A DNA stretch of 64,000 bases, taken from Blastococcus mobilis (GTDB lineage Bacteria > Actinomycetota > Actinomycetes > Mycobacteriales > Geodermatophilaceae). The notes beneath the pieces are model-generated. The model was not told the origin of the DNA, searched no databases, and was given only the letters and a program-made list of their open reading frames with translations. Shown here piece by piece: positions 8,656 through 24,881 of the stretch. The first letter of the stretch is position 1. Each line of letters opens with the position of its first letter. Both the position numbers and the translations under genes were made by a program. The stretch spans positions 1 through 64,000 of the forward strand of contig NZ_FZNO01000008.1 in assembly GCF_900188025.1 (NCBI RefSeq). Direction: 5' to 3'.

Positions 8656-8730
8656 GGCGCCTCCCCCCTCCGGGTGATCCGGGGACCTGGAGCCCTGAAC
8701 TCCGCCCGTTCCGCGGCCGATGTCTCGGAC

Positions 8731-11052
8731 ATGGACCAGCGGCCTCAGGATGCGGCCACGCGGCCGTGTCCGGGTCGCGTGCTGTCCCTGACGATCGGCC
8801 TGGTCGCGCTGTTCGCCACCGGGATCGGACAGCGTCCGGCCGGCGCGGCGTGGGACCGGACGTACGACGTCGTCCTCTACAACCTGCCCTACCTCGCCGC
8901 GGCTGCGGCGTGCGTGGTGGCGGCGCGCCGGGTGCGGACGGAGCGGGTCGCCTGGGCCGCGCTCGCCGTCGCGCTGACGCTGGGAGCGGTCGGCAACGCA
9001 CTGCGCGTGCTCTCCGCCGGCCTGGACGGCGACGAACCGTCCTCCGCGCTCTCGCACGTGGTCACGCTCGCGGCCTACCTGGTCATGTACGTGCCCGTCG
9101 TCGTACTGATCCGCGCCCGGGTTCCGCGCTTCCACCCCAGCATGTGGCTGGACGGCGTCGTGGCCGCCCTCGGCAGCTTGTCCGCCGGGGTCGCCTTCCT
9201 CCTGGGCCCCCACCTCCGTACCGACTCCGGCGCGGCGCCGGTGACAGCCGTCGACCTCGTGGCACCGGTCACGACGGTCCTGCTCATCGCCGTCGTCATG
9301 GCCGTCGGCGGCATCCTCGGCGTGCGCCTCGACCGCACTTTCGTGCTGCTCGGCGCGGGGCTGGTCCTCATCTGCGTCTCGGACGTCATCCTGTTCGCCC
9401 TCAAGGTGCAGGGCGCCTACGTCGACGGCGGCCCGCTGGAACTCGGCTGGCTCGCCTCCGTCGTCCTTGCCGCCGCAGCTGCGGAGCGCGCGGTAGAACG
9501 ACCGGCTCCCGTCGACGCCCCCGGCTCCCGCATCGGCTGGCGGCTGCTGGCCGTGCCCCTCGCCTGCCTCATGGCCAGTCTCGTCGTGCTCAGCCCGGGG
9601 TGGTCGCCGCCCGTGCCGGACATCGCGGGCTGGCTGGCCATCGGCTGCGTGCTGGCCGGCGTGGTCCGCATCGCCGTGACCTTCCGCGAGGTCCGCGAGT
9701 ACAACCAGGTCAAGCTGGAGTCGCGGACCGACGAGCTCACCGGGCTCGCCAACCGTCGCGCGCTGCTCGAGCAGGCCCAGCGTGTCGTCGCCTCGGCCGG
9801 CCGGGAGCGGCCCGCCGCCCTGCTGCTGCTCGACCTCGACGGGTTCAAGGAGATCAACGACAGCCTCGGCCACTCCGCCGGTGACGACCTGCTGCGCCAG
9901 ATCGGGCCGCGGCTGCGCAGCTCGCTGCGGTCCGACGACCTCCTGGCCCGACTCGGTGGCGACGAGTTCGCCGTGCTGATGCCGGCCGCGGAGCCCGCCG
10001 AGGCACGCGCGCTCGCGGAGCGGCTGCACGACCTGCTGCTCGCGCCGTTCACGGTGGCCGACATCCGGCTGCACGTCGGCGTCAGCATCGGCGTCGCGGC
10101 CACGCCGGCACCGGCCACGACCGTCCAGGAGCTGCTGCACTGCGCCGACGTCGCCATGTACACCGCCAAGCGCGCCCGCGAAGGCGTGCACGTCTACGTG
10201 CCCGACCCCGTCACGGGCACCGCCGGGAGCGACCGGCTGCGCACCATGGAGGAGTTGCGGACCGCCCTCGACGGGGACGAACTCCGCGTCTTCCTGCAGC
10301 CCCAGATGGATCTGCGCGACGGCCGGATCGTCGGCGTCGAGGCACTGGTCCGGTGGGACCACCCCACCCGGGGGCTGCTCCTGCCCGGCCACCTGCTGCC
10401 GGCGGCCGAGCAGGCCGGGCTCCTGCGGTCGCTGACCGACCGTGTGCTCGAACTGGCGCTCGCGGCGGCCGCCCGCTGGTGGCGCGACCGCTCAGTGCCG
10501 GTGTCGGTCAACCTGTCGGCGGGGAACGTCACCGACCTCGACCTGGCCGGCAAGGTCGCCGCCGCGCTGCACCGGCACGGCTTGCCCCCGCAGGCGCTCA
10601 CGCTGGAACTGGTCGAGGACACCCTCATGGGCGACCCCGAACGCGGCCGGACGGTGCTCGCCGACCTGCGCCGGTCCGGCGTCCGCACGTCGATCGACGA
10701 CTACGGCACGGGGTACAGCTCGCTGGCCTACCTGCGGCAGCTGCCGGCCGACGAGCTCAAGCTCGATCGCAGCCTGACCGCCGACGTCGACCGCGATCCA
10801 CGGGCTGCGGCCATCGTGCAGAGCACCGTCGCGCTCGCCCACGCCCTGGGCCTGAGCGTGGTCGCGGAGGGAGTCGAGACTCTGGCGACCAGCACCACGC
10901 TCGCCCGCCTCGGCTGCGACGTCGCCCAGGGGTACGCGATCGCCCGACCCATGCCGGTCGACGACTTCCTGCGCTGGCTGGCTGCCTCGGACTCCGGGCT
11001 CATCGACGAAGCCTTGATCCCGCACCTCACCCAGGGCCTTGCTGCCGACTGA
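8731..11052 (+). CDS. Membrane GGDEF-EAL protein, both catalytic motifs intact
   Basis: A 773-residue c-di-GMP enzyme. The N-terminal ~300 residues contain about eight hydrophobic segments and no recognised sensor motif. GGDEF domain: DELTGLANRRALLEQ, and RLGGDEFAVL at about residue 409, with an RxxD inhibitory-site motif (RSDD) five residues before it. EAL domain: EALVRWDHP at about 537, VNLSAGN, ELVEDTLM, SIDDYGTGYSSL, LKLDRSL, VAEGVET, QGYAIARPM. All usual metal and catalytic residues are present, so it could make or degrade c-di-GMP. The ATG at 8731 is preferred over 8674, which falls at the edge of the nrfD fragment. There is no obvious Shine-Dalgarno. Confidence 0.9.
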   Translation: MDQRPQDAATRPCPGRVLSLTIGLVALFATGIGQRPAGAAWDRTYDVVLYNLPYLAAAAACVVAARRVRTERVAWAALAVALTLGAVGNALRVLSAGLDGDEPSSALSHVVTLAAYLVMYVPVVVLIRARVPRFHPSMWLDGVVAALGSLSAGVAFLLGPHLRTDSGAAPVTAVDLVAPVTTVLLIAVVMAVGGILGVRLDRTFVLLGAGLVLICVSDVILFALKVQGAYVDGGPLELGWLASVVLAAAAAERAVERPAPVDAPGSRIGWRLLAVPLACLMASLVVLSPGWSPPVPDIAGWLAIGCVLAGVVRIAVTFREVREYNQVKLESRTDELTGLANRRALLEQAQRVVASAGRERPAALLLLDLDGFKEINDSLGHSAGDDLLRQIGPRLRSSLRSDDLLARLGGDEFAVLMPAAEPAEARALAERLHDLLLAPFTVADIRLHVGVSIGVAATPAPATTVQELLHCADVAMYTAKRAREGVHVYVPDPVTGTAGSDRLRTMEELRTALDGDELRVFLQPQMDLRDGRIVGVEALVRWDHPTRGLLLPGHLLPAAEQAGLLRSLTDRVLELALAAAARWWRDRSVPVSVNLSAGNVTDLDLAGKVAAALHRHGLPPQALTLELVEDTLMGDPERGRTVLADLRRSGVRTSIDDYGTGYSSLAYLRQLPADELKLDRSLTADVDRDPRAAAIVQSTVALAHALGLSVVAEGVETLATSTTLARLGCDVAQGYAIARPMPVDDFLRWLAASDSGLIDEALIPHLTQGLAAD

Positions 11053-14256: not shown

Positions 14257-15318
14257 TCACCTCTTCCGCGAACCGAGGAACGCCGTCACGGCGACCCCCA
14301 CCATCATCACTGCCGCCTTGCCTGCGGCCTTCCACATGGCCGGCAGGTCCCGGGTGGTCACGACCGGGTCCGGCGGCAGGCCGTAGACCTCCGGCTCGTC
14401 GAGGAGCAGGAAGAACGCCCCCGCTCCCCCGACGCCGTCGTTCTCGTCCCGCCCGTACAGGCGCGCCGTCTCCACGCCCTGCGACTGCAGCGTCGCCAGC
14501 CGGGCGTCGGCGCGGGCCTGCAGCTCGTCGAGGTCCCCGAACTGGATCGACTGGGTCGGGCACGCCGTGGCGCACGCGGGCTGGAGCCCGTCGGTCAGCC
14601 GGTCGTAGCACATCGTGCACTTGAAGACCCGGCCGTCGTCCTTGCGCTGGTCGATGACGCCGTACGGGCAGGACGCCACGCAGTAGCCGCAGCCGTTGCA
14701 GATGTCGCCCTGCACCACCACGGTCCCGAACTCGGTGCGGAACAGCGCCCCCGTCGGGCAGACGTCGAGACAGCCGGCGTGCGTGCAGTGCTTGCACACG
14801 TCAGAGCTCATCAACCAGCGGACCTGCGTGTCCGCCCCGCTCTGCCCGGTCTGCGGGTCGAACTCGCTCAGCGCCTCCGCGTTCAGCACGCTCTGCTGGG
14901 CATTGGCCAGGCTGACGTCGTCCCCTGCTTCCGCCGGCGAGGGGCCGCTGCCCTGCCGGTCGTCGCCAGGGCGGCCGAACGTCGGCATCGGCAGGTCGAC
15001 GGTGCGGCTCTGCTCGATGAACGCCACGTGGCGCCAGGAGTTGGCCCCCAGCTGCCCTGTGTTGTCGTAGGACATGCCCGACAGGCCCAAGGCGTCACGC
15101 ACACCGTGGGAGTCGTCCATCGGCAGCGTGTTCCACTCCTTGCACGCCACCTCGCAGGCCTTGCAGCCGATGCAGACCGAGGTGTCGGTGAAGAAGCCCA
15201 CCCGCTTCGGGTGCTCCTCCTCGTAGCCCGCCTCACCCTGGACGTCGGGCAGTGGCCCGAACAGGCGGTTGTGCGGATCGCGGCCGGTGAAGGCGGGGCT
15301 GGCCGAGCTGATCGTCAC
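14257..15318 (-). CDS. fdhB: Formate dehydrogenase iron-sulfur (beta) subunit
   Basis: A 353-residue four-cluster ferredoxin subunit. Cys motifs in order: CIGCKACEVACKEW, CKHCTHAGCLDVCP, CNGCGYCVASCPYG, and CTMCYDRLTDGLQPACATAC. A C-terminal hydrophobic helix (AAVMMVGVAVTAFLG) anchors it in the membrane, as in FdoH/FdnH. It relays electrons from FdhA to the NrfD-like subunit. The GTG start at 15318 has GGAGG six bases upstream and lies 28 bases after the fdhA stop. An extra ~60-residue segment between the first two motifs (residues ~85-145) is longer than I expect for E. coli FdoH. Three damaged copies lie at 0.9-1.6, 3.5-3.8 and 6.8-7.1 kb. Confidence 0.95.
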   Translation of the reverse strand: MTISSASPAFTGRDPHNRLFGPLPDVQGEAGYEEEHPKRVGFFTDTSVCIGCKACEVACKEWNTLPMDDSHGVRDALGLSGMSYDNTGQLGANSWRHVAFIEQSRTVDLPMPTFGRPGDDRQGSGPSPAEAGDDVSLANAQQSVLNAEALSEFDPQTGQSGADTQVRWLMSSDVCKHCTHAGCLDVCPTGALFRTEFGTVVVQGDICNGCGYCVASCPYGVIDQRKDDGRVFKCTMCYDRLTDGLQPACATACPTQSIQFGDLDELQARADARLATLQSQGVETARLYGRDENDGVGGAGAFFLLLDEPEVYGLPPDPVVTTRDLPAMWKAAGKAAVMMVGVAVTAFLGSRKR

Positions 15319-15346: not shown

Positions 15347-18300
15347 TCAGAGGGTCGATCCCTCGCCGGCGTCGGCGGCGACCGGGTCGCGGCCGTTCAC
15401 GCCCACCCGTCCCGACTCCACCCCGGCCCGGCGGCGGTAGCTCTCGACGAACTCGAGCAGCTCGGGTCCGCGAGGGCGCCGCCCGGCGACGATGTCGCAG
15501 GTGCTGGCCTTCGACTCCTGGATGTGGGTGTTGGGATCCATCACGATGCCCAGCAGGTCGTTCGCCGCGTCTCCGGTGGAGATGCCCGCGTAGGACCAGT
15601 GGTACGGCATACCGATCTGATGGACGACCGTCCCGTCGCGCAGCTTGATCGGCCGGACCCGCTCGGTCACCAGCACCTTGGCCTCGACCGCGGTGCGGGC
15701 GCTGACCAGCGTGGCGTACTCGCCGTTGGTCAGTCCGCGCAGCCGGGCCAACTCCGGGCTCACCTCCACGAAGAACTCCGGCTGGAGCTCCGCCAGGTAG
15801 GGCAGGGTGCGGCTCATCCCGCCGGCCGTGTGGTGCTCGGTGAGCCGGTAGGTGGTCACCTGGAACGGGTAGACGTCGCTGCGGGTCGGGTTGGCCCGGT
15901 TCCAGGGCCCCTCGATCATCTCGAGAGTCGGGTTCGCCTGCTGCTTGTAGAAGGCGTTCTCGACCACCGACTCGGCCGGCTCGTAGTGCGTCGGCAACGG
16001 GCCGTCGACCACGCCTGCGGGCGCGAACAACCACGCCTTGCCGTCACCCTGCATGACGAAGGGGTCGTTCCCCGCCAGCGCGTCCTGTGCCTGCGCACCC
16101 TCCGGGGGCACGTAGTCCGGCCGCTTGTTCTTCTCGAAGTCCGGGACGTCGAGACCGGTCCACTCGCCGGCGTCCTCGTCCCACCACACGTACTTCTTGC
16201 GCTCGCTCCACGGCTTGCCGTCGGGGTCGGCCGAGGCGCGGTTGTAGAGCATCCGCCGGTTGAGCGGCCACGCCCAGCCCCACTCGGAGGCGACGGCGCC
16301 CTGCTCCTCGGCCGGCTTGCGCCGAGCAGCCTGGTTGACCTCGTCGGCGTACACGCCGCAGTAGATCCAGCAGCCGCCCGTCGTCGAGCCGTCGTCCTTC
16401 ATCTGCATGTAGGACGACAGCGCCCTGCCGTCGGGCCCGGTGCCGTTGATCTCACGGAGCACTGCCTCGGCGTCCGGGTCCTGCGTCTCCCCGTGCACCG
16501 GGTAGTCCCAGGTGAGGTCGAGCAGCGGGCGGTCCCGCGGATCGGTGGAGTCCTTCAGCCGCTCGCGCAGGATGCGGCCGAGGTGAAAGTAGAACCACAG
16601 GTCGCTGCGGGCGTCGTCCGGCGGCTCGACGGCCTTGTCGCGCCACTGCAGCACGCGCTGCGTCTGGGTGAAGGTTCCTTCCTTCTCCACGTGCGTGGCC
16701 GCCGGCATGAAGAAGACCTCGGTGCCGATCGAGGCCGGGGACAGCTCCCCCGTCTCGTGCTCCGGGCCCTCCTTCCAGAAGGTCGCCGACTCGATCATCT
16801 GGAGGTCCCGGACGACCAGCCAGTCGAGGTTGGCCAGCCCGAACCGGTTCATCCGGCTGTTCGGGTGCCCGACGCCCGGGTTCTCGCCGACGAGGAAGTA
16901 GCCCGAGACCTTCCCCTTGATCATGTCGGTGATCGTCCGGTAGGAGCTGTGGTCGCCGTTGATCTTGGGCAGGTAGTCGAAACAGAAGTCGTTCTCCGCC
17001 GTCGCGGCGTCGCCCCACCAGCTCTTGAGCAGGCTGACCATGTAGGCCCGCTTGTTGCCCCAGAAGCCCGCCTTGCCGGCGGCGTCCGCCACGTACTCGT
17101 CGAGGCTCTGGTGCTGGAGGGCGTGCGGCATGGGCAGGTAGCCGGGCAGCAGGTTGAACAGCGTCGGGACGTCGGTCGAGCCCTGGATGCTGGCGTGCCC
17201 GCGCAGCGCCAGGATCCCGCCGCCGGGACGGCCGATGTTGCCCAGCAGCGTCTGCAGGATCGAGCAGGTGCGGATGTACTGCGCGCCGACGCTGTGCTGC
17301 GTCCAGCCCACCGAGTACACCCACGCCGTCGTCCGGTCGCGGTTGCTGTTCTCGGTCACCCACTTCGCGACCTGCTCGAAGACCGCCGGCTCGATGCCGC
17401 AGACCTCCGACACCATCTCCGGGGTATAGCGGGCGAAGTGCCGCTTGAGGATCTGGAAGACCGAGCGCGGGTGCTGCAGCGTCTCGTCCCGCTTGGGCTT
17501 CGACGGGATCGGCGGGCCTCCGCTGCCGGCGGCCTCGGCCCGGTCGGACTTCTTGACGTCCACGTGGTCGTCGAGCTGGTCCTGCTCCGCGGCCTCGGCC
17601 GGGTCCTCGGAGCCCGAGTGCGGGGGCTCCTCCGGCTCGTACTGCCAGCTGTCCTCGTCGTACACCCGGTTCTCCGGGTCGAAGCCGGAGAACAGGCCGC
17701 CGAGGTCCTCGGAGTCGACGAAGTCCTCGCCCACGAGCGCGGCCGCGTTGGTGTACGCGACCACGTAGTCCTTGAAGTACAGCTCGTTGTCGAGCACGTA
17801 CTTGATCAGGCCACCGAGGAACGCGATGTCGGTGCCGATGCGCAGGGGCACGTGCAGGTCGGCGATCGCGCTGGTGCGCGTGAACCGCGGGTCGATGTGC
17901 ACGATCTTGGCGCCGCGCGCCTTGGCCTCACCGACCCACTGGAAGCCCACCGGGTGGCACTCGGCCATGTTCGAACCCTCGATGACGATGCAGTCGGAGT
18001 TCGCCAGGTCTTCCAGGAAGTTGGTTGCGCCACCACGGCCGAACGAGGCACCCAGACCGGGCACCGTCGCGGAGTGCTATATCCGGGCCTGGTTCTCGAT
18101 CTGGATAGCGCCGAGGGCGCTGTAGAGCTTTTTCATGAGGTAGTTCTCCTCGTTGTCGAGGGTCGCCCCTCCGAGGCTCGCTATCCCCATCGTTCGGTTG
18201 ACGCGCTTGCCGCCGTCCTCGTCCTGCCAGCCCTTGCGGCGGGCCTCCAGCACCCGGTCGGCGATCATCTCCATCGCCGTGTCGAGGTCGAGGTCCTCCC

Positions 18301-18637
18301 AGTCCGTCGCGAACGGACGGCGGTACTTGACCGTGGTCACCCGGCTCGGGCTCGTCACCAGCTGCTTGCTCGCGCTGCCCTTGGGGCACAGCCGGCCCCG
18401 GTTGATCGGCGAGTGCGGGTTGCCCTCGATCTGGACGACCTTCTCGTCCTTCACGTAGACGTTCTGCGCACAGCCCACGGCGCAGTACGGGCACACGCTC
18501 TTCACGACGCGGTCGGCCGTCGCTGTCCGGGACACGGTGGCCTCGGTCGCCTTGCTGCGCGCGGCCTTGCCGCGACCCAGTGGGTCGGAGCCGGTGAGCT
18601 GCCGGTACACCGGCCAGCTGTCGAGCCAGGTCTTCAC
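15347..18637 (-). CDS. fdhA: Formate dehydrogenase alpha subunit, selenoprotein with UAG-coded selenocysteine
   Basis: A molybdo/tungsto-bis-PGD enzyme of 1,096 residues, read through an in-frame TAG at 18079-18077 (codon 187). The Fe-S motif CPYCAVGC...C is at residues 49-84. NQARI-[TAG]-HSATVPGLGASFGRGG matches the FdnG/FdoG active site, where residue 187 must be Sec or Cys and the next His is catalytic. A SECIS hairpin begins 11 nt after the TAG. Frame and homology continue without a gap to the stop at 15347. GTG 18637 fits the family start (VKTWLDSWPVYRQLTGSDPL). There is an acidic low-complexity insert near residues 335-380. Ordinary annotation would split it into two ORFs, 18637-18077 and 18064-15347. 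It oxidises formate to CO2. No sel genes occur in the window. Confidence 0.92.
18047..18079 (-). promoter_or_regulatory. SECIS element following a UAG selenocysteine codon
   Basis: On the mRNA strand: UAG (18079-18077), 11-nt spacer CACUCCGCGAC, stem GGUGCCC (18065-18059), loop GGUCU (18058-18054), stem GGGUGCC (18053-18047). All seven stem positions pair, with tandem U-G and G-U wobbles in the middle, where the E. coli fdhF SECIS has its bulged U. Loop sequence and spacing equal those of E. coli fdhF as I remember it. The hairpin should bind SelB carrying Sec-tRNA with a CUA anticodon. Confidence 0.88.
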
Positions 18638-18780: not shown

Positions 18781-20079
18781 TCAGCCCGGGACCTTCACCG
18801 CCCGCGAGGCCACGCTCCCGGCCGCCGGGATGTCGCCGGGCCGCGGCAGCGCGTCGGCGACCGGACCAGGCACCGCCTGCGTCACCGCAGCGGGCACCCT
18901 CACCGGCGGGGGCACCACCTTCGTCACCGGCGGGGGCACGGCCTTCGTCACCGGCGGGGGCACCACCTTCGTCACCGGCGGGGGCACGGCCTTCGTCACC
19001 GGCGAAGGCGCCACCTTCGTCACCGCAGCGGGCACCCTCACCGGCGGGGGCACCACCTTCGTCACCGGCGAAGGCACCACCTTCGTCACCGGAGCAGGCA
19101 CCGTCACCGGCGCGGGCACCCTCACCGGCGGAGGCACCACCTTCGTCACCGGCGGAGGCACCACCTTCGTCACCGGCGGAGGCACCGCCTTCGTCACCGG
19201 AGCAGGCACCGTCACCGGAGCAGGCACCGTCACCGGAGCAGGCACCGTCACCGGCGCGGGCACCCTCACCGGCGCGGGCACCCTCACCGGAGGGGGCGCC
19301 GCCTTCGTCACCGGCGGGGGCACCGCCTTCGGAGCGGGAGCAGGCACCGCCTCCCTCACCGGCTCGCTCGCCGGCGCCAGCGGCGCCGGCGGGCCGGTCC
19401 CGGTCGAGTGCGGGCCCGTCGGCGTGCCCGCGCCGCGCGGGAGACGATCGGTCGGCTCCTGCACGGAATCGACCGGTCCCGCCTGTGGGGTGGGCTGGTG
19501 CGTGGCGTCGGCGGGGGCATCGTCGGCGCGCGCACCGCCGTCGCCCGGCCAAGGGGCTGGGCCGGACCCGGCCCGCGCATCGACCGCGGAGGCGACCGCG
19601 CCGTCGGACCGCATGCCGGCCATCAGCAGCGAGGCGCCATCCATGGCCGTGCCGTGCGCCGCCACCTGCGCCGTCGACCGTTCACCGACGGTCTGCTGGA
19701 GCAGGTCCCAGACGCCGCCGCCCCAGCCCCCGTCCGTCTCACCGTCACCCGGCGAGAACCGCTGGATCACCCGGGCGATGTCGGCCGCTCGTGGCCCATC
19801 CGGGCTCCCCGGCAACGCCGTCGACGGGCGGGGCTCCGGGGGGCGTTCCGCCAGCAGGTTCCCCCGCGGCTCCGGCGGTCCCGACAGCACGATCGCCATC
19901 ACGGCGGCGGCCGCCATGGCGCCGCTCACCGCCAGCAGCGGAGGGGTGCCTGGCTGCTGCGCGGGGGCGCGATGCCGCGCCTGGTGCCGCGCGTCCCGCC
20001 GTATCTCGTTCCGGTCCCGACGCGGCCCCTCGTGCCCGTCATCGGAGTTCCGGCGCCGTCCCTGCAGCCGTCGGCTCAT
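18781..20079 (-). CDS. Membrane-anchored protein with long Pro/Val/Thr repeat tail
   Basis: A 432-residue protein. ATG 20079 has a strong GGGGAGAG site 5 bases upstream. The N-terminus is highly basic (MSRRLQGRRR...), followed by one membrane segment (LLAVSGAMAAAAVMAIVL near residue 60), a region of low similarity, and about 170 residues of VPAPVT and KVVPPPVT repeats to the end. The layout is type II: cytoplasmic N-terminus, with the proline-rich tail outside, perhaps spanning the cell wall. No catalytic domain is seen. It is separated from fdhA by 143 bases and is probably not part of that operon. Very long open frames on the opposite strand here are shadows. Confidence 0.6.
   Translation of the reverse strand: MSRRLQGRRRNSDDGHEGPRRDRNEIRRDARHQARHRAPAQQPGTPPLLAVSGAMAAAAVMAIVLSGPPEPRGNLLAERPPEPRPSTALPGSPDGPRAADIARVIQRFSPGDGETDGGWGGGVWDLLQQTVGERSTAQVAAHGTAMDGASLLMAGMRSDGAVASAVDARAGSGPAPWPGDGGARADDAPADATHQPTPQAGPVDSVQEPTDRLPRGAGTPTGPHSTGTGPPAPLAPASEPVREAVPAPAPKAVPPPVTKAAPPPVRVPAPVRVPAPVTVPAPVTVPAPVTVPAPVTKAVPPPVTKVVPPPVTKVVPPPVRVPAPVTVPAPVTKVVPSPVTKVVPPPVRVPAAVTKVAPSPVTKAVPPPVTKVVPPPVTKAVPPPVTKVVPPPVRVPAAVTQAVPGPVADALPRPGDIPAAGSVASRAVKVPG
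18890..19340 (-). repeat. In-frame 24-nt and 18-nt coding repeats
   Basis: Interleaved units of 24 nt (coding KVVPPPVT or KAVPPPVT) and 18 nt (coding VPAPVT or VRVPAP) within the proline-rich tail. Near-identical neighbouring units suggest expansion by slippage. The array stays in frame throughout, so it is a protein repeat and not CRISPR. Confidence 0.75.
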
Positions 20080-20379
20080 GTTCTCTCCCCACACCGCTGC
20101 GCAGAGGGGCTGGGTAGCACGGATTCCCACCCACCGGCCGGCGCGGGACCTCGAGTCCGTCCGACACGACGGGACGAGTGGTCGCGCGCTGCGGAACGCG
20201 ATGGCGGGGACACCCCGAGCTACCCGGAGCTCACGCCCGTCGCGGCCCGTCCACGGACGCGAGCGGCCGGCGGGCGCAGCTCGTGGCAGACACCGCGGCG
20301 CCTCCGCCGTCCGCCCCCTTTCGGGTGACAGCGGGGGCTCTGCACTGAAGCGGCTCGCGGATGTTCCCGATCAGATCGT
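20080..20379. other. Divergent intergenic region
   Basis: 300 bases between the proline-repeat gene (minus) and the PAS-GGDEF-EAL gene (plus), presumably holding both promoters. An inverted repeat GCCCCC-N14-GGGGGC lies near 20320-20345. I see no c-di-GMP riboswitch core or convincing -35/-10 pair. Confidence 0.5.
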
Positions 20380-22317
20380 GTGAGCACCGCCCCCGCCATG
20401 GGGCAGCCAGCGGCTGCGTCCCCGGTCGCGCCCCCCAGCGGGCGCACCGGGCTGCTCGTCGTACCCGCCGTCCTGGTCGCCGTCGCCCTCGTCGTGGGTG
20501 GCCTTCTCTCGGGTCCCGCGGTCCTCGGACTGGTCCTGGCCGTCGCCGGGCTCATCGTGCTGGTCGCCTTCCAGGCCACGCTGTGGAGCCGGCAGCGCCG
20601 GCTCGCCGGCGACCTCCAGCGCAGCCAATCCTCGTTCCGCACGCTCGTGAAGAGCAGCGTCGACCCGGTGGTCATCCTCGACGGCGGGCTGCGGGTCACC
20701 TTCGCCTCGCAGGCCATCGCCGACCTGCTCGGTCTCGACCCTGCGTGCGCCGTCGGCGCCCCGGTCGTGGCGGCCGTCCACCCCGACGACCGGTCCGCCG
20801 TCCTCGACGCGCTGCGCGGCTCCCCGAGCGAGAGCGGCGAGCTCGCAGTCCGCACCGCACGGGCCCGGCATGCCGACGGCGGCTGGCGGCTCATCCAGGC
20901 CACCATCCGGGACCTGCGCGCCGACCCCGACGTCGGCGCGCTCGTCCTGTACTGCCGCGACGTCACCCCGCGGGTTCCGGCGACGGGCATCGACCCGGAC
21001 CTGCACGAGTTCTCCCTCACCGACCCGGTCACGGGTCTGCCCAACCGGGCCGCGCTGGTCCGCCGCCTGGGCGCCGTCCAGCGAGGAGCGGGCGGCCCGT
21101 TCTCCCTCGCCCTCCTGCGGATCAGCGGCCTGGCCACCGAGATCCTCGCCCCGGACACCGAGACCGCCGTCCTGCGCGCGCTGACCGCCCGGCTCACGCG
21201 CGCCCTGCGCGGCGAGGACTGGCTGGCCCGCGGCACCGACGGCGACTTCGTCGTCCTGGTCGTCGGCAGCACTGCCGACGCCGAGGTCGTGGCCGCCCGC
21301 CTGGTGGCCGCCGTCGGCCCCGTGCCGATCCCCGGCGGTTCGCTCCGCCTGTCCGCCGTCGCCGGTGTGACCACCCTGTGCGCCGACGCCGACACCGGCG
21401 AGACCCTGCGTCGCGGCGACCTGGCCCTGCGCAGCGCGGCCACGGCCGGCCCGGGCTCGGTCCACCGGTACGACGACGCCCTGTGCACCGAGGAGGACCG
21501 CCGCGCCACCCTGCGCACCGACCTGACCGGCGCGCTGGCCCGTGGTGAGCTGCGCCTGGTCTTCCAGCCGGTCGTCGACGTCGTCATGCACCGCACCGTC
21601 TCCGTCGAGGCGCTGCTGCGCTGGCGGCACCCGCTGTTCGGCGACGTCTCCCCCACCGAGTTCGTGCCCCTGGCCGAGGAGTCGCCGCTGATCACCGACC
21701 TGGGCCGGTGGGTGCTGCGCGAGGCCTGCGCCACCATCGCCGCCCTCGGCGACGCGGGTCCGCACGACCAGGCCTTGAGCGTCGCGGTCAACGTCTCGGC
21801 CCGCCAGGTGCGCAGCGGCGAGCTCGTGCCCGACGTCATCCACGCCCTGGAGACCAGCGGCCTGTCGCCGTCCCGGCTCGTCGTCGAGATCACCGAGTCG
21901 GTCCTGCTCGACGACTCGCACGTCATCGAGGACCTCACCGTCCTGCGCCGGCTCGGCGTCCGCATCGCCGTCGACGACTTCGGCACCGGCTGGTCCTCAC
22001 TGGCCTACCTGGTCGGCATGCCCGTCGACGTGCTCAAGATGGACCAGTACTTCCTGTCCGACGTCGAGCACGACCCCGCCCGCCGCGCGATGTGCCGGGT
22101 GGTGCTGCAGCTGGGCGCCAGCCTCGACCTGCCCGTCATCGTCGAGGGCGTCACCAACGAGGCCGTCCTCACGTTGCTGCGGGACATGGGGCACCGCTAC
22201 GTACAGGGCTACGTCTTCGCCCGTCCGCTCGAGGCGGCGCAGCTGGCCGCCGGGGCCTGGGACATGAGCCTCCCGCTGCCCGGTGCCCTCCCCGAGATCC
22301 CGGCGGCGGCGTCGTGA
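20380..22317 (+). CDS. PAS-GGDEF-EAL protein: degenerate GGDEF, intact EAL (likely c-di-GMP phosphodiesterase)
   Basis: 645 residues. There are two N-terminal membrane segments (LLVVPAVLVAVALVVGGLL and the following), then a PAS domain (~80-200: FRTLVKSSVDPVVILDG, YCRDVTP). In the GGDEF domain the signature is RGTDGDFVVLV (~285), so Gly-Gly and Glu are lost and no cyclase activity is expected. The EAL domain keeps EALLRWRHP (~410), VNVSARQ, EITESVLL, AVDDFGTGWSSL, LKMDQYF, VEGVTNE and QGYVFARPL, so the metal and catalytic residues are present. Predicted c-di-GMP phosphodiesterase. Its stop overlaps the GTG of the next gene, which has the mirror-image pattern. Confidence 0.88.
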   Translation: MSTAPAMGQPAAASPVAPPSGRTGLLVVPAVLVAVALVVGGLLSGPAVLGLVLAVAGLIVLVAFQATLWSRQRRLAGDLQRSQSSFRTLVKSSVDPVVILDGGLRVTFASQAIADLLGLDPACAVGAPVVAAVHPDDRSAVLDALRGSPSESGELAVRTARARHADGGWRLIQATIRDLRADPDVGALVLYCRDVTPRVPATGIDPDLHEFSLTDPVTGLPNRAALVRRLGAVQRGAGGPFSLALLRISGLATEILAPDTETAVLRALTARLTRALRGEDWLARGTDGDFVVLVVGSTADAEVVAARLVAAVGPVPIPGGSLRLSAVAGVTTLCADADTGETLRRGDLALRSAATAGPGSVHRYDDALCTEEDRRATLRTDLTGALARGELRLVFQPVVDVVMHRTVSVEALLRWRHPLFGDVSPTEFVPLAEESPLITDLGRWVLREACATIAALGDAGPHDQALSVAVNVSARQVRSGELVPDVIHALETSGLSPSRLVVEITESVLLDDSHVIEDLTVLRRLGVRIAVDDFGTGWSSLAYLVGMPVDVLKMDQYFLSDVEHDPARRAMCRVVLQLGASLDLPVIVEGVTNEAVLTLLRDMGHRYVQGYVFARPLEAAQLAAGAWDMSLPLPGALPEIPAAAS

Positions 22318-24881
22318 TCACGCTGCAGAGCATTCCCCGGAGCGTCCGCTGGACGGTGCCGCTGGGCCTGATCGGCCTGGCCCTCACCGTTCCGTTCAGC
22401 GCGCCCGACGGCAGCGGCATGCAGTGGGACGAGGCCGTTCTCGGCGGTGTGGCGGCCAGCTCGGCGTGGGCGGTCGTCCGGCTCATCCGCACCATGGACG
22501 CCCGGGCCGCCCTCCCGTGGCGGATCGTCGGCGTCGCCGCCCTGCTCTTCATGACCGCGCAGTGGCTGACCGCTGCCTTCCCGGGCCCGCAGCTGGACGG
22601 CTTCGGCCTCGACGACGTCCTCCTCTTCGCCGGCGCCTGCGCGCCACTGATCACCTGTGCGCTGCTGGCCCGCCGGGTCCGCCGCACCCGCTCGACCGCC
22701 CTCGTCGTCGACGGGCTCATCATCACCGTCGCGCTGCTCACCGTCACCGAGGTGCTCCGCACGCCGCTGGTGAACCCGGCCGGCGCCCCCGACGACCTGC
22801 GTTCGCTGGTCCTCGCCTACGGCGGTTACGCCGCGGTCATGCTCGGCGGCGGCGCCGCGCTGTGCACCGTCTCGACGGCAGCCCTGCGCCGCTCGGCCAG
22901 CATCATGATGGGCGCCGTCGGGTGGCAGGCCCTCGCCGCCTGCGCCGAGGCGATGGCCATCATCGAGCCCTCCTGGGTCTGGACGGCGACCTCGGACGTC
23001 GCCGTCGCCCTGGGCATGCAGACGGTCGTCGTCGCGGCGAGCTTCGCGCCGCGCCGGCGAACCAAGCAGACCGCCCGTGACTCCGCCCCACAGGTGAGTC
23101 GCCTGGGCCTGCTCCTGGTGGTCGGGGCCATGCTCAGCCTGCCGATCGCCATCGCCGTGATGGAGGTGCGCGGCGAGCCCCACCCCGTCGCCGCGGAGGC
23201 CGGCTTCGCCGTCGTCTTCACGCTCATGGCGCTGCGACTCGTGCTCCGCGTCCGTGAGGACGGCCGGGTCACCGCGGACCTCGTCCGCTCGGAGGACGAC
23301 TTCCGCGAGCTCATCGAGGCCAGCTCCGACGGCATCGCCATCATGGACGGCGACTTCCGCCTGCTGTTCACCTCACCGGCCGCCCGCAGCCTGCTGGGGC
23401 TCGACTCGGACACCGAGGACGACGTCTCGCTGCTGGACCTCGTCGACCCGGCCGACCGCGACAAGGTCCACGCCGCCACCGTCGACGTCGCCGCCGGTGA
23501 GGGCCCGCCGCTGCACTTCCGCGTCGTGGGGGCCGACGGATCGGCCCGCGATCTGGAGGCCATCTCCACCGAGCGCCCGGGCAGCGGCCGCCGCGTGCTC
23601 TACCTGCGCGACGTCACCACCCGGCGCAGCCGCGAGCGGGAGCTCGAGCGCATGGCCTACACCGACCACCTCACCGGCCTGCCCAACCGCGCCATGCTCT
23701 TCGGCGAGATGGCGACGGCCGCGGACCACGACCGCTGTCTGGTCGTCCTCGACCTCGACGGCTTCAAGGCCGTCAACGACGTCGCCGGGCACGAGGCCGG
23801 CGACCAGCTGCTGGTCGAGGTGGCCCGCCGCCTGCACACCGTGGTCCGCGAGGACGACCTGGTCGCGCGCCTGGGCGGCGACGAGTTCGCCGTCCTCGTC
23901 GCCGGCAGTCTCGTCGAGGCCGAGGACGTCGCCCAGCGCATCGTCCACGCCCTGAGCGTGCCGCACCGCACCAGCGACTGGACCTTCGCGATCGGCGCCA
24001 GCGCCGGCGTCTCCGCGCTCGGCGCCGCCGGGGGCCAGCTCGCCTTCCGTGAGGCCGACGCCGCCCTGCGCGCGGCCAAGCAGTCCGGCAAGGGCTGCGT
24101 GCGGCTGGCCAATGTGGCGGACTCCCCCTTCGTCGTTCCGGATGCGGAGCTCGGGGCGCTGGTCGACGAGGGCATGCTCCACATCCGCCTCGACGCCGCC
24201 TGCGACGCCGACGGCCGCATCGCGATGCTGCACGCCGTCCCGGTCTGGCAGCACGTCCTCCACGGCACCGTCCGGGGCGCGGAGCTGTGGACCGCCGCCG
24301 AGCGGCAGGGCCGCTCGGCGGAGCTCCAGGGATGGCTGCTGCGGCAGGCCTGCCTCGAGATCGCCGGTCTGGACGACCGCATCAGCGTGGCGGTCAGCCT
24401 CCCGGCCGGTCACGTCCACCCCGACGGCCTGGCCGGCGAGGTCGAGGCCGCGCTCGCCGGATCCGGGCTCGCCCCGTCGCGACTGATCCTGTCCTTCACC
24501 GAGGAGACCCTGCTGACCGGCTCGGCTGCCCTGATCCCCGAGCTCGAGGCCACCCGCTGCACCGGTGTACGCCTGTGCCTGGACAACTTCGGCATGGGCC
24601 ACAGCCTCTACGCCCTGCTCGCCCGGATCCCCCTGGACATGGTGCGGGTGGACCTGGCGGCGCTCGCCTCCCGTGACGACACCGACCGCGCCCTCCAGGT
24701 GCTGGCCGCCATCGTCGGGACGACGGCCGGCTTCGGCCTGACCGCCATCGCCGGTGGGATCAGCGCGCCGGAGCTCCGCGACGCCGTCCTCGCCACCGGC
24801 GTCGACCTGCTGCAGGGCCGGGGCCACCACGACCTCACCGCCGGCGAGGTGGCGGCACTGCGCACCGTCCCCGCCGTCTGA
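22314..24881 (+). CDS. MASE-like membrane PAS-GGDEF-EAL protein: intact GGDEF, degenerate EAL (likely diguanylate cyclase)
   Basis: 855 residues, starting with the GTG that overlaps the previous stop by 4 bases. About eight to nine membrane segments fill the first ~310 residues. A PAS domain (DFRELIEASSDGIAIMDGDF, VLYLRDVT) follows. GGDEF is intact: DHLTGLPNRAML, DLDGFKAVND, RLGGDEFAVL near residue 521, with an RxxD site (REDD) five residues earlier. The EAL domain is degenerate: LHAVPVWQHV replaces EALLRW, DNFGMGHSL replaces DDFGTGYSS, and the catalytic Lys and Glu are lost. Predicted diguanylate cyclase with a pseudo-EAL domain. With the upstream phosphodiesterase it forms a synthesis/degradation pair in one transcript. 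Confidence 0.88.
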   Translation: MITLQSIPRSVRWTVPLGLIGLALTVPFSAPDGSGMQWDEAVLGGVAASSAWAVVRLIRTMDARAALPWRIVGVAALLFMTAQWLTAAFPGPQLDGFGLDDVLLFAGACAPLITCALLARRVRRTRSTALVVDGLIITVALLTVTEVLRTPLVNPAGAPDDLRSLVLAYGGYAAVMLGGGAALCTVSTAALRRSASIMMGAVGWQALAACAEAMAIIEPSWVWTATSDVAVALGMQTVVVAASFAPRRRTKQTARDSAPQVSRLGLLLVVGAMLSLPIAIAVMEVRGEPHPVAAEAGFAVVFTLMALRLVLRVREDGRVTADLVRSEDDFRELIEASSDGIAIMDGDFRLLFTSPAARSLLGLDSDTEDDVSLLDLVDPADRDKVHAATVDVAAGEGPPLHFRVVGADGSARDLEAISTERPGSGRRVLYLRDVTTRRSRERELERMAYTDHLTGLPNRAMLFGEMATAADHDRCLVVLDLDGFKAVNDVAGHEAGDQLLVEVARRLHTVVREDDLVARLGGDEFAVLVAGSLVEAEDVAQRIVHALSVPHRTSDWTFAIGASAGVSALGAAGGQLAFREADAALRAAKQSGKGCVRLANVADSPFVVPDAELGALVDEGMLHIRLDAACDADGRIAMLHAVPVWQHVLHGTVRGAELWTAAERQGRSAELQGWLLRQACLEIAGLDDRISVAVSLPAGHVHPDGLAGEVEAALAGSGLAPSRLILSFTEETLLTGSAALIPELEATRCTGVRLCLDNFGMGHSLYALLARIPLDMVRVDLAALASRDDTDRALQVLAAIVGTTAGFGLTAIAGGISAPELRDAVLATGVDLLQGRGHHDLTAGEVAALRTVPAV

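Follow-up and report, generated by a model that had tools for sequence, protein, structure and literature searches.

The genome of Blastococcus mobilis (5.09 Mb in 88 contigs) encodes a formate dehydrogenase alpha subunit (fdhA) whose reading frame is interrupted by one in-frame TAG codon. The question raised by this locus is whether the gene is broken or whether UAG is read as an amino acid at this position, and if so, as which one and by what route the codon arose. The sequence analysed, referred to here as the window, is the 64,000-nucleotide stretch at positions 1 to 64,000 of contig NZ_FZNO01000008.1. The genome adjoins Blastococcus, within the Geodermatophilaceae, and in a tree of SelA proteins the host protein pairs with that of Blastococcus tunisiensis (support 98/84). 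The features of the locus are as follows:

15347..18637, minus strand: fdhA, formate dehydrogenase alpha subunit (186 residues, selenocysteine and 909 residues, with one in-frame TAG)
18077..18079, minus strand: codon 187, TAG, predicted to be read as selenocysteine (opposite residue X of 1H0H; family conservation)
18080..18082, minus strand: ATA (Ile) directly 5' of the TAG, the strongest usage departure among the conserved codons of the gene (5.83 bits, one G226 gene being counted twice)
18047..18065, minus strand: SECIS-like hairpin, seven pairs, loop GGUCU (pair conservation in 117 genes)
14257..15318, minus strand: fdhB, iron-sulphur beta subunit (Pfam Fer4_11, 86.4 bits; FDH-beta, 180.7 bits, under the cut-off of 334.7 for that model)
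13218..~14138, minus strand: NrfD-type membrane subunit (Pfam NrfD, 42.8 bits, cut-off 25.8)

The fdhA frame and the selenocysteine machinery of its host

The frame runs on the minus strand from 18637 to 15347 and ends in a terminal TGA. The original prediction had placed a single TAG at 18079-18077 between the motifs NQARI and HSATVPGLG, with 186 and 909 residues on its two sides, all of which proved to be exact. The part 3' of the TAG scores 1552.4 bits against NCBIfam NF041513, a model of actinobacterial formate dehydrogenase (cut-off 1400), and the part 5' of it scores 334 bits at model positions 2-185; the two halves thus join at the TAG. As each half matches formate dehydrogenase independently, the claim that homology is unbroken on both sides was borne out. 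Against TIGR01553 (formate dehydrogenase-N alpha, cut-off 814.2) the halves, scored separately, reach 802.6 and 127.8 bits. Alignment places the TAG opposite residue X of the solved enzyme 1H0H, within the shared motif QARI-X-HSATV; this residue we take to be selenocysteine. The fdhB and NrfD-type genes lie downstream of fdhA and are free of stops, as the original prediction had noted. The NrfD-type subunit, for which no NCBIfam match was obtained, is likely to form the quinone side of the formate dehydrogenase complex.

Other frames lie around this operon. Directly upstream of fdhA, an open frame on the minus strand (18781-20130) consists mostly of VPAPVTVPAPVTK-like repeats, and long frames on the plus strand (8674-11052, 20380-22317 and 21708-24881) appear by eye to encode GGDEF/EAL-like signalling proteins.

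A tRNA-Sec with a CUA anticodon, together with selA, selB and selD, had been predicted to occur elsewhere in the genome, and all were identified. The tRNA (C65:81524-81615) matches the Rfam tRNA-Sec model end to end with 67 bits (gathering threshold 47), bears the anticodon CTA and adjoins the sel genes in a cluster of the order selD, tRNA-Sec, selA and then selB. Each of these genes scores over its NCBIfam cut-off: selD with 385.3 bits (125), selA with 422.6 (267.9) and selB with 287.6 (242.25), the SelB protein possessing a C-terminal winged helix. A second Rfam tRNA-Sec match over the cut-off (48.2 bits), located inside the window, was rejected as a tRNA-Ser. ARAGORN labels the C65 tRNA "tRNA-Pyl" from its anticodon, which would agree with UAG being read as pyrrolysine. 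This reading is considered exceedingly improbable in view of the end-to-end fit of the tRNA to the tRNA-Sec model, its location between selD and selA, and the residue found at the site in formate dehydrogenases without a stop: among 20 such genes read outside the Geodermatophilaceae, picked by the author from the matches listed, it is Cys in every one, each time preceded by Val.

A gene for release factor RF1 was also found (472 bits, cut-off 423), and a rough gene call over the window gave 28 genes, 25 ending in TGA and three in TAG. With RF1 present and TAG ending these three genes, UAG probably still serves as a stop codon elsewhere.

The hairpin that follows the TAG was assessed by its pairing across 117 fdhA genes. 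Six of its seven pairs are formed in 116 or 117 genes and the seventh in 94, with the loop GGUCU present in 109, and pair 4 shows two-sided changes. The stem pair formed by the third bases of V192 and G196 varies on both sides and is nevertheless paired in 68 of 68 TAG genes and 48 of 48 TGA genes; shuffling, with kinship ignored, gave means of 40.6 and 37.2, respectively, and the observed counts exceeded each of 2000 shuffles. In a test of register over 118 rows, in which one G226 gene is present twice (L145 = L271), 800 of 826 cells are paired in register; sliding the partner by one to three bases lowers this to 516 or fewer. Folding energy showed no excess stability over shuffled sequence (z 0.63 and 0.72) and was rejected as proof of the hairpin, pair counts being used instead.

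These elements suggest the following mechanism. The CUA tRNA-Sec would, by homology, be charged with serine, which SelA would convert to give Sec-tRNA using selenophosphate from SelD. SelB would then carry the Sec-tRNA, bind the hairpin just 3' of the codon and compete there with RF1, with UAG presumably keeping its stop function elsewhere. RF1 rather than RF2 should be the competitor since the codon is UAG and the anticodon CUA. Direct analysis provides the codon, the tRNA, the sel genes, the RF1 gene, the hairpin pairing, the conservation, the trees and the ATA rule; the insertion of selenium into FdhA, the binding of SelB, the timing of the changes and any function of ATA are what we infer. 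Mukai and co-workers reportedly used 75Se labelling in Geodermatophilus and Blastococcus in 2016.

Distribution of the TAG codon and of the tRNA-Sec anticodons

Matches to fdhA at E <= 1e-50 were found in 101 of 112 Geodermatophilaceae genomes. The match extends across codon 187 in 98 of these (the remaining three being G033, G079 and G096), and every such match holds TAG. A single in-frame stop is what would be expected of a broken fdhA, truncated by a nonsense mutation, a pseudogene or the product of a base error. The presence of TAG in every codon-spanning match of 98 family genomes shows it to be neither chance nor base error, and its conservation across genera contradicts the broken-gene reading, as do the conservation of both flanking parts and the matching tRNA in the genome; we regard the probability of that reading as negligible. 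The codon was read directly in 68 family genes, hand-picked among the matches listed in the 112-genome search, and is TAG in all of them, so that the proposed comparison of codon 187 with relatives yielded neither TGC nor TGT in the family genes read. Outside the Geodermatophilaceae, 49 distinct genes from the same order or class, likewise the author's picks among the matches listed, gave TGA 48 times and TGC once. Based on the codon, the tRNA, the sel genes and this conservation, the prediction that the locus is a case of UAG-encoded selenocysteine is well supported, and fdhA very probably encodes a molybdenum or tungsten formate dehydrogenase with its active-site selenocysteine written UAG, a degree of confidence that applies to the whole explanation, including mechanism and history. 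Annotation aware of UGA alone would be expected to cut such enzymes in two.

Several individual genes deserve mention. Both fdhA copies of G079 (L086 and L087) lack the stretch around codon 187, their left ends differing and their right end being identical; they may be pseudogenes or reflect an assembly fault. An extra TGA as a second selenocysteine codon was rejected for fdhA of G009 and G028, where it falls at query position 1090, near the gene end, and for G024 and G107, where no TGA lies inside the best alignment. The fdhA match of G766, from another family, contains a TAG within query positions 344-1058, away from the selenocysteine codon.

A tRNA-Sec match was obtained for 108 of the 112 family genomes. 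The anticodon was read in 48 of these 108, being CTA in 41 genomes from nine genera and TCA in seven, all of which belong to genera g5, g6 and g7. In other families of the order it is TCA in 29 of 29 read. Genera g5-g7 yielded no fdhA of this kind at E <= 1e-50 and no selenocysteine gene with TGA, and both of the UGSC genes read from them encode Cys. As no TGA selenocysteine gene was found in these genera, it is the tRNA that points to the ancestral state within the family.

An exact-pattern scan of the GTDB collection for CUA tRNA-Sec returned 95 stretches, at least 76 of which (80 listed) are tRNA-Sec, as judged by sequence; L167, L176, L203 and L230 were also scored with Rfam. The carriers are labelled Blastococcus, Geodermatophilus, Modestobacter, Klenkia, Trujillonella or Goekera, or bear a family-level label, except for L167, L176 and L203. 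These three have other taxon labels and an identical tRNA type, and L203 falls inside the CTA clade of the SelA tree, from which L176 (too short) and L167 were left out. Four stretches from the scan (L166, L193, L217 and L224) were rejected as not tRNA-Sec-like. One of them, L217:2782-2868, from a MAG labelled Erysipelotrichaceae, is a tRNA with a CUA anticodon that Rfam assigns to tRNA and not to tRNA-Sec; it is perhaps an amber-reading tRNA.

Two genomes possess more than one tRNA-Sec. In addition to a CTA tRNA-Sec, G058 carries a second one with UCA (81.8 bits; L079:1173-1263, on G058:C17), near frames that by eye are transposase-like. No tblastn match to SelA, SelB, SelD, FdhA or UGSC at E <= 1e-3 was found on this 69 kb contig, and a second selenocysteine system there was rejected in favour of a lone tRNA-Sec(UCA). 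The contig may be contamination; if the tRNA is real, UGA as well as UAG could be read as selenocysteine in this strain. G036 has two CUA tRNA-Sec genes on different contigs (L077 and L091) and is likely a mixed MAG.

The host genome also encodes two UGSC-like genes, in each of which a single TAG stands at the U position of the motif. Against the UGSC family model NF041046 (cut-off 125) the first scores 141.9, over the cut-off, and the second 99.4, under it. Within the family, 94 UGSC matches were found in 54 genomes, 72 with TAG, 22 with no stop and none with TGA. The site was read in 51 of the 94, giving 41 TAG and 10 Cys, with both the g5 and the g7 site among the latter. Paralogues with Cys (TGC) in place of selenocysteine (L282-L289) also occur alongside TAG copies in the same genome, as in G052, G053, G054 and G091. 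An AhpC with TAG is reported for B. saxobsidens in the accessible part of PMC5330540; the seven AhpC-TSA matches (E <= 0.001) in the host genome contain no internal stop.

Trees of SelA and FdhA and the codon before the TAG

In the SelA tree (44 rows), all 14 rows with CTA group in a single clade with 100/100 support, corresponding to one change. Four UCA rows of the same family, from g6 and g7, lie outside this clade, their exact placement being unsettled. The FdhA tree was built, with the stop masked, from 57 rows hand-picked from the 117 genes read (24 TAG, 32 TGA and 1 TGC). On it TAG requires five changes (5-5 over bootstraps), forced by the starred branches, and the same number was obtained from a quick tree made earlier with 56 rows and different outgroups. 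The five TAG lineages are interspersed among genes of UGA users. Of the four smaller ones, that of L110 is placed with f41 and f16 genes, that of L111 and others with f8 and f15 genes, and that of L114 with f2 genes; for the L108/L109 lineage the nearest relative is an f8 gene with the Cys codon TGC, not TGA. The clearest case is L110, the second fdhA copy of G001. Among the matches listed, ten f41 genes with TGA share 76-79% identity with it and two more f41 genes 65 and 67%, and the two Geodermatophilaceae genomes covered by the same search have TAG genes that reach 68% and 66%.

With one CTA clade and five TAG lineages of FdhA among UGA users, copies of fdhA seem to have been recoded repeatedly. 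On the simplest reading of the trees, fdhA genes came in from bacteria that use UGA and were recoded afterwards. The anticodon would have changed once, inside the Geodermatophilaceae, and fdhA copies of separate ancestry would each have changed to TAG, mostly from TGA, their preceding Ile codon becoming ATA alongside. These changes would have occurred since the anticodon switch, or at its time in the case of old copies. It is rather unlikely that the five lineages are old paralogues sharing one ancestor, every one of them recoded at the switch and none acquired later. Such a history would need no later recoding, and the FdhA tree shows changes and not dates. It sits poorly, however, with the rarity of some lineages (L110 and L114 are each represented by one genome among the tree rows) and with L110 being closest to TGA genes of another family among the matches listed, and several separate codon changes are needed in either case. 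Some fdhA genes may instead have been transferred outward with reversal of the codon; as with the recoding of old paralogues, the codon must then have changed repeatedly, each time in step with the host rather than with the gene.

The recoding of incoming copies, if correct, would have left a second mark. The Ile codon before the TAG is ATA in all 68 TAG fdhA genes, and elsewhere in the same genes Ile is encoded by ATC 2571 times, by ATA 46 times and by ATT 8 times (2625 in total). In the 48 TGA genes the codon before the TGA is ATT in 38, ATA in nine and ATC in one, against 1746 ATC, 37 ATT and 15 ATA elsewhere. Among the conserved codons compared, this one departs furthest from usage, with 5.83 and 4.90 bits (computed with the G226 duplicate included). 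ATA precedes TAG in all five TAG lineages (rows off the tree being assigned to the main lineage), and 21 TGA relatives chosen by the author have ATT (17) or ATA (4) there. In UGSC genes the Asp codon before the TAG is GAT in 27 and GAC in 14 of the 41 read, and before a Cys codon it is GAC in 10 of 10; as a yardstick, the TAG fdhA genes use GAT for 156 of their 4897 Asp codons. Selenocysteine codons here thus tend to follow a codon ending in A or T, a rule without exception among the TAG fdhA genes read. An Ile codon at this position is not universal, as the P-site residue of E. coli fdhF is Val (PMC4513850, in its accessible text).

It is proposed that ATA acts at the P-site on release-factor competition. 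A separate selenocysteine code would then have formed after one anticodon change, an incoming fdhA being kept only once ATT-TGA had become ATA-TAG, with AUA as a second part of the UAG-Sec signal that, for example, slows RF1 as SelB and the SECIS element deliver Sec-tRNA. This is quite possible and is put forward tentatively. Somewhat more doubtful is an ATA without function, which would either move with TAG by short gene conversion from a resident fdhA or reflect avoidance of ATC, which before TAG would form CTAG. The copies are nearly identical in their flanks, so that a patch of a dozen bases could bring in ATATAG in one step. CTAG may also be avoided in such genomes. However, the TGA genes, in which no CTAG can arise, still avoid ATC and prefer ATT, and in the unrelated UGSC genes GAT precedes TAG far above the Asp yardstick given above, although GAC does exist there before TAG (14 of the 41). 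An AUA that takes part in the signal would be a concrete element testable with reporters, and the fixed codon could help UAG-based selenoprotein production.

Comparison with known systems

The genetic code seldom changes in nature, and the way in which genes follow a changed tRNA can rarely be observed. Here one change of machinery and several changes of genes can be separated on trees, so that the route to a recoded codon and its retention become open to test. UAG-coded selenocysteine itself is already published for relatives. Not found in print were the recurrent recoding and the ATA rule; a literature search that covered few subscription journals returned no publication about repeated switches of this kind or about the codon that precedes the selenocysteine codon. 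A 2026 review, in its accessible text, gives the natural selenocysteine codon as UGA only (PMC13188914).

The closest known system is that of Geodermatophilus and Blastococcus, which the original prediction had named. According to the accessible part of PMC5330540, which adds AhpC, tRNA-Sec(CUA) of Geodermatophilaceae with UAG-containing formate dehydrogenase and UGSC genes was reported by Mukai et al. 2016. The present locus shares with it the family, the tRNA-Sec(CUA) and the TAG in formate dehydrogenase and UGSC genes. What is added here, from sequences alone, is the spread over 112 genomes, the UCA genera g5-g7, the five FdhA lineages and the ATA codon. Canonical bacterial selenocysteine insertion is alike in its SelA, its SelB with a winged-helix end, its SelD and the hairpin after the codon, and differs in using UGA and a tRNA-Sec with UCA, in contrast to UAG and CUA here. 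In engineered E. coli, UAG with a CUA tRNA-Sec and a SECIS element gave a selenoprotein yield similar to that of UGA/UCA, as described in the accessible text of PMC3834832; the codon-anticodon pairing is the same, engineered in that case and natural in Blastococcus mobilis.
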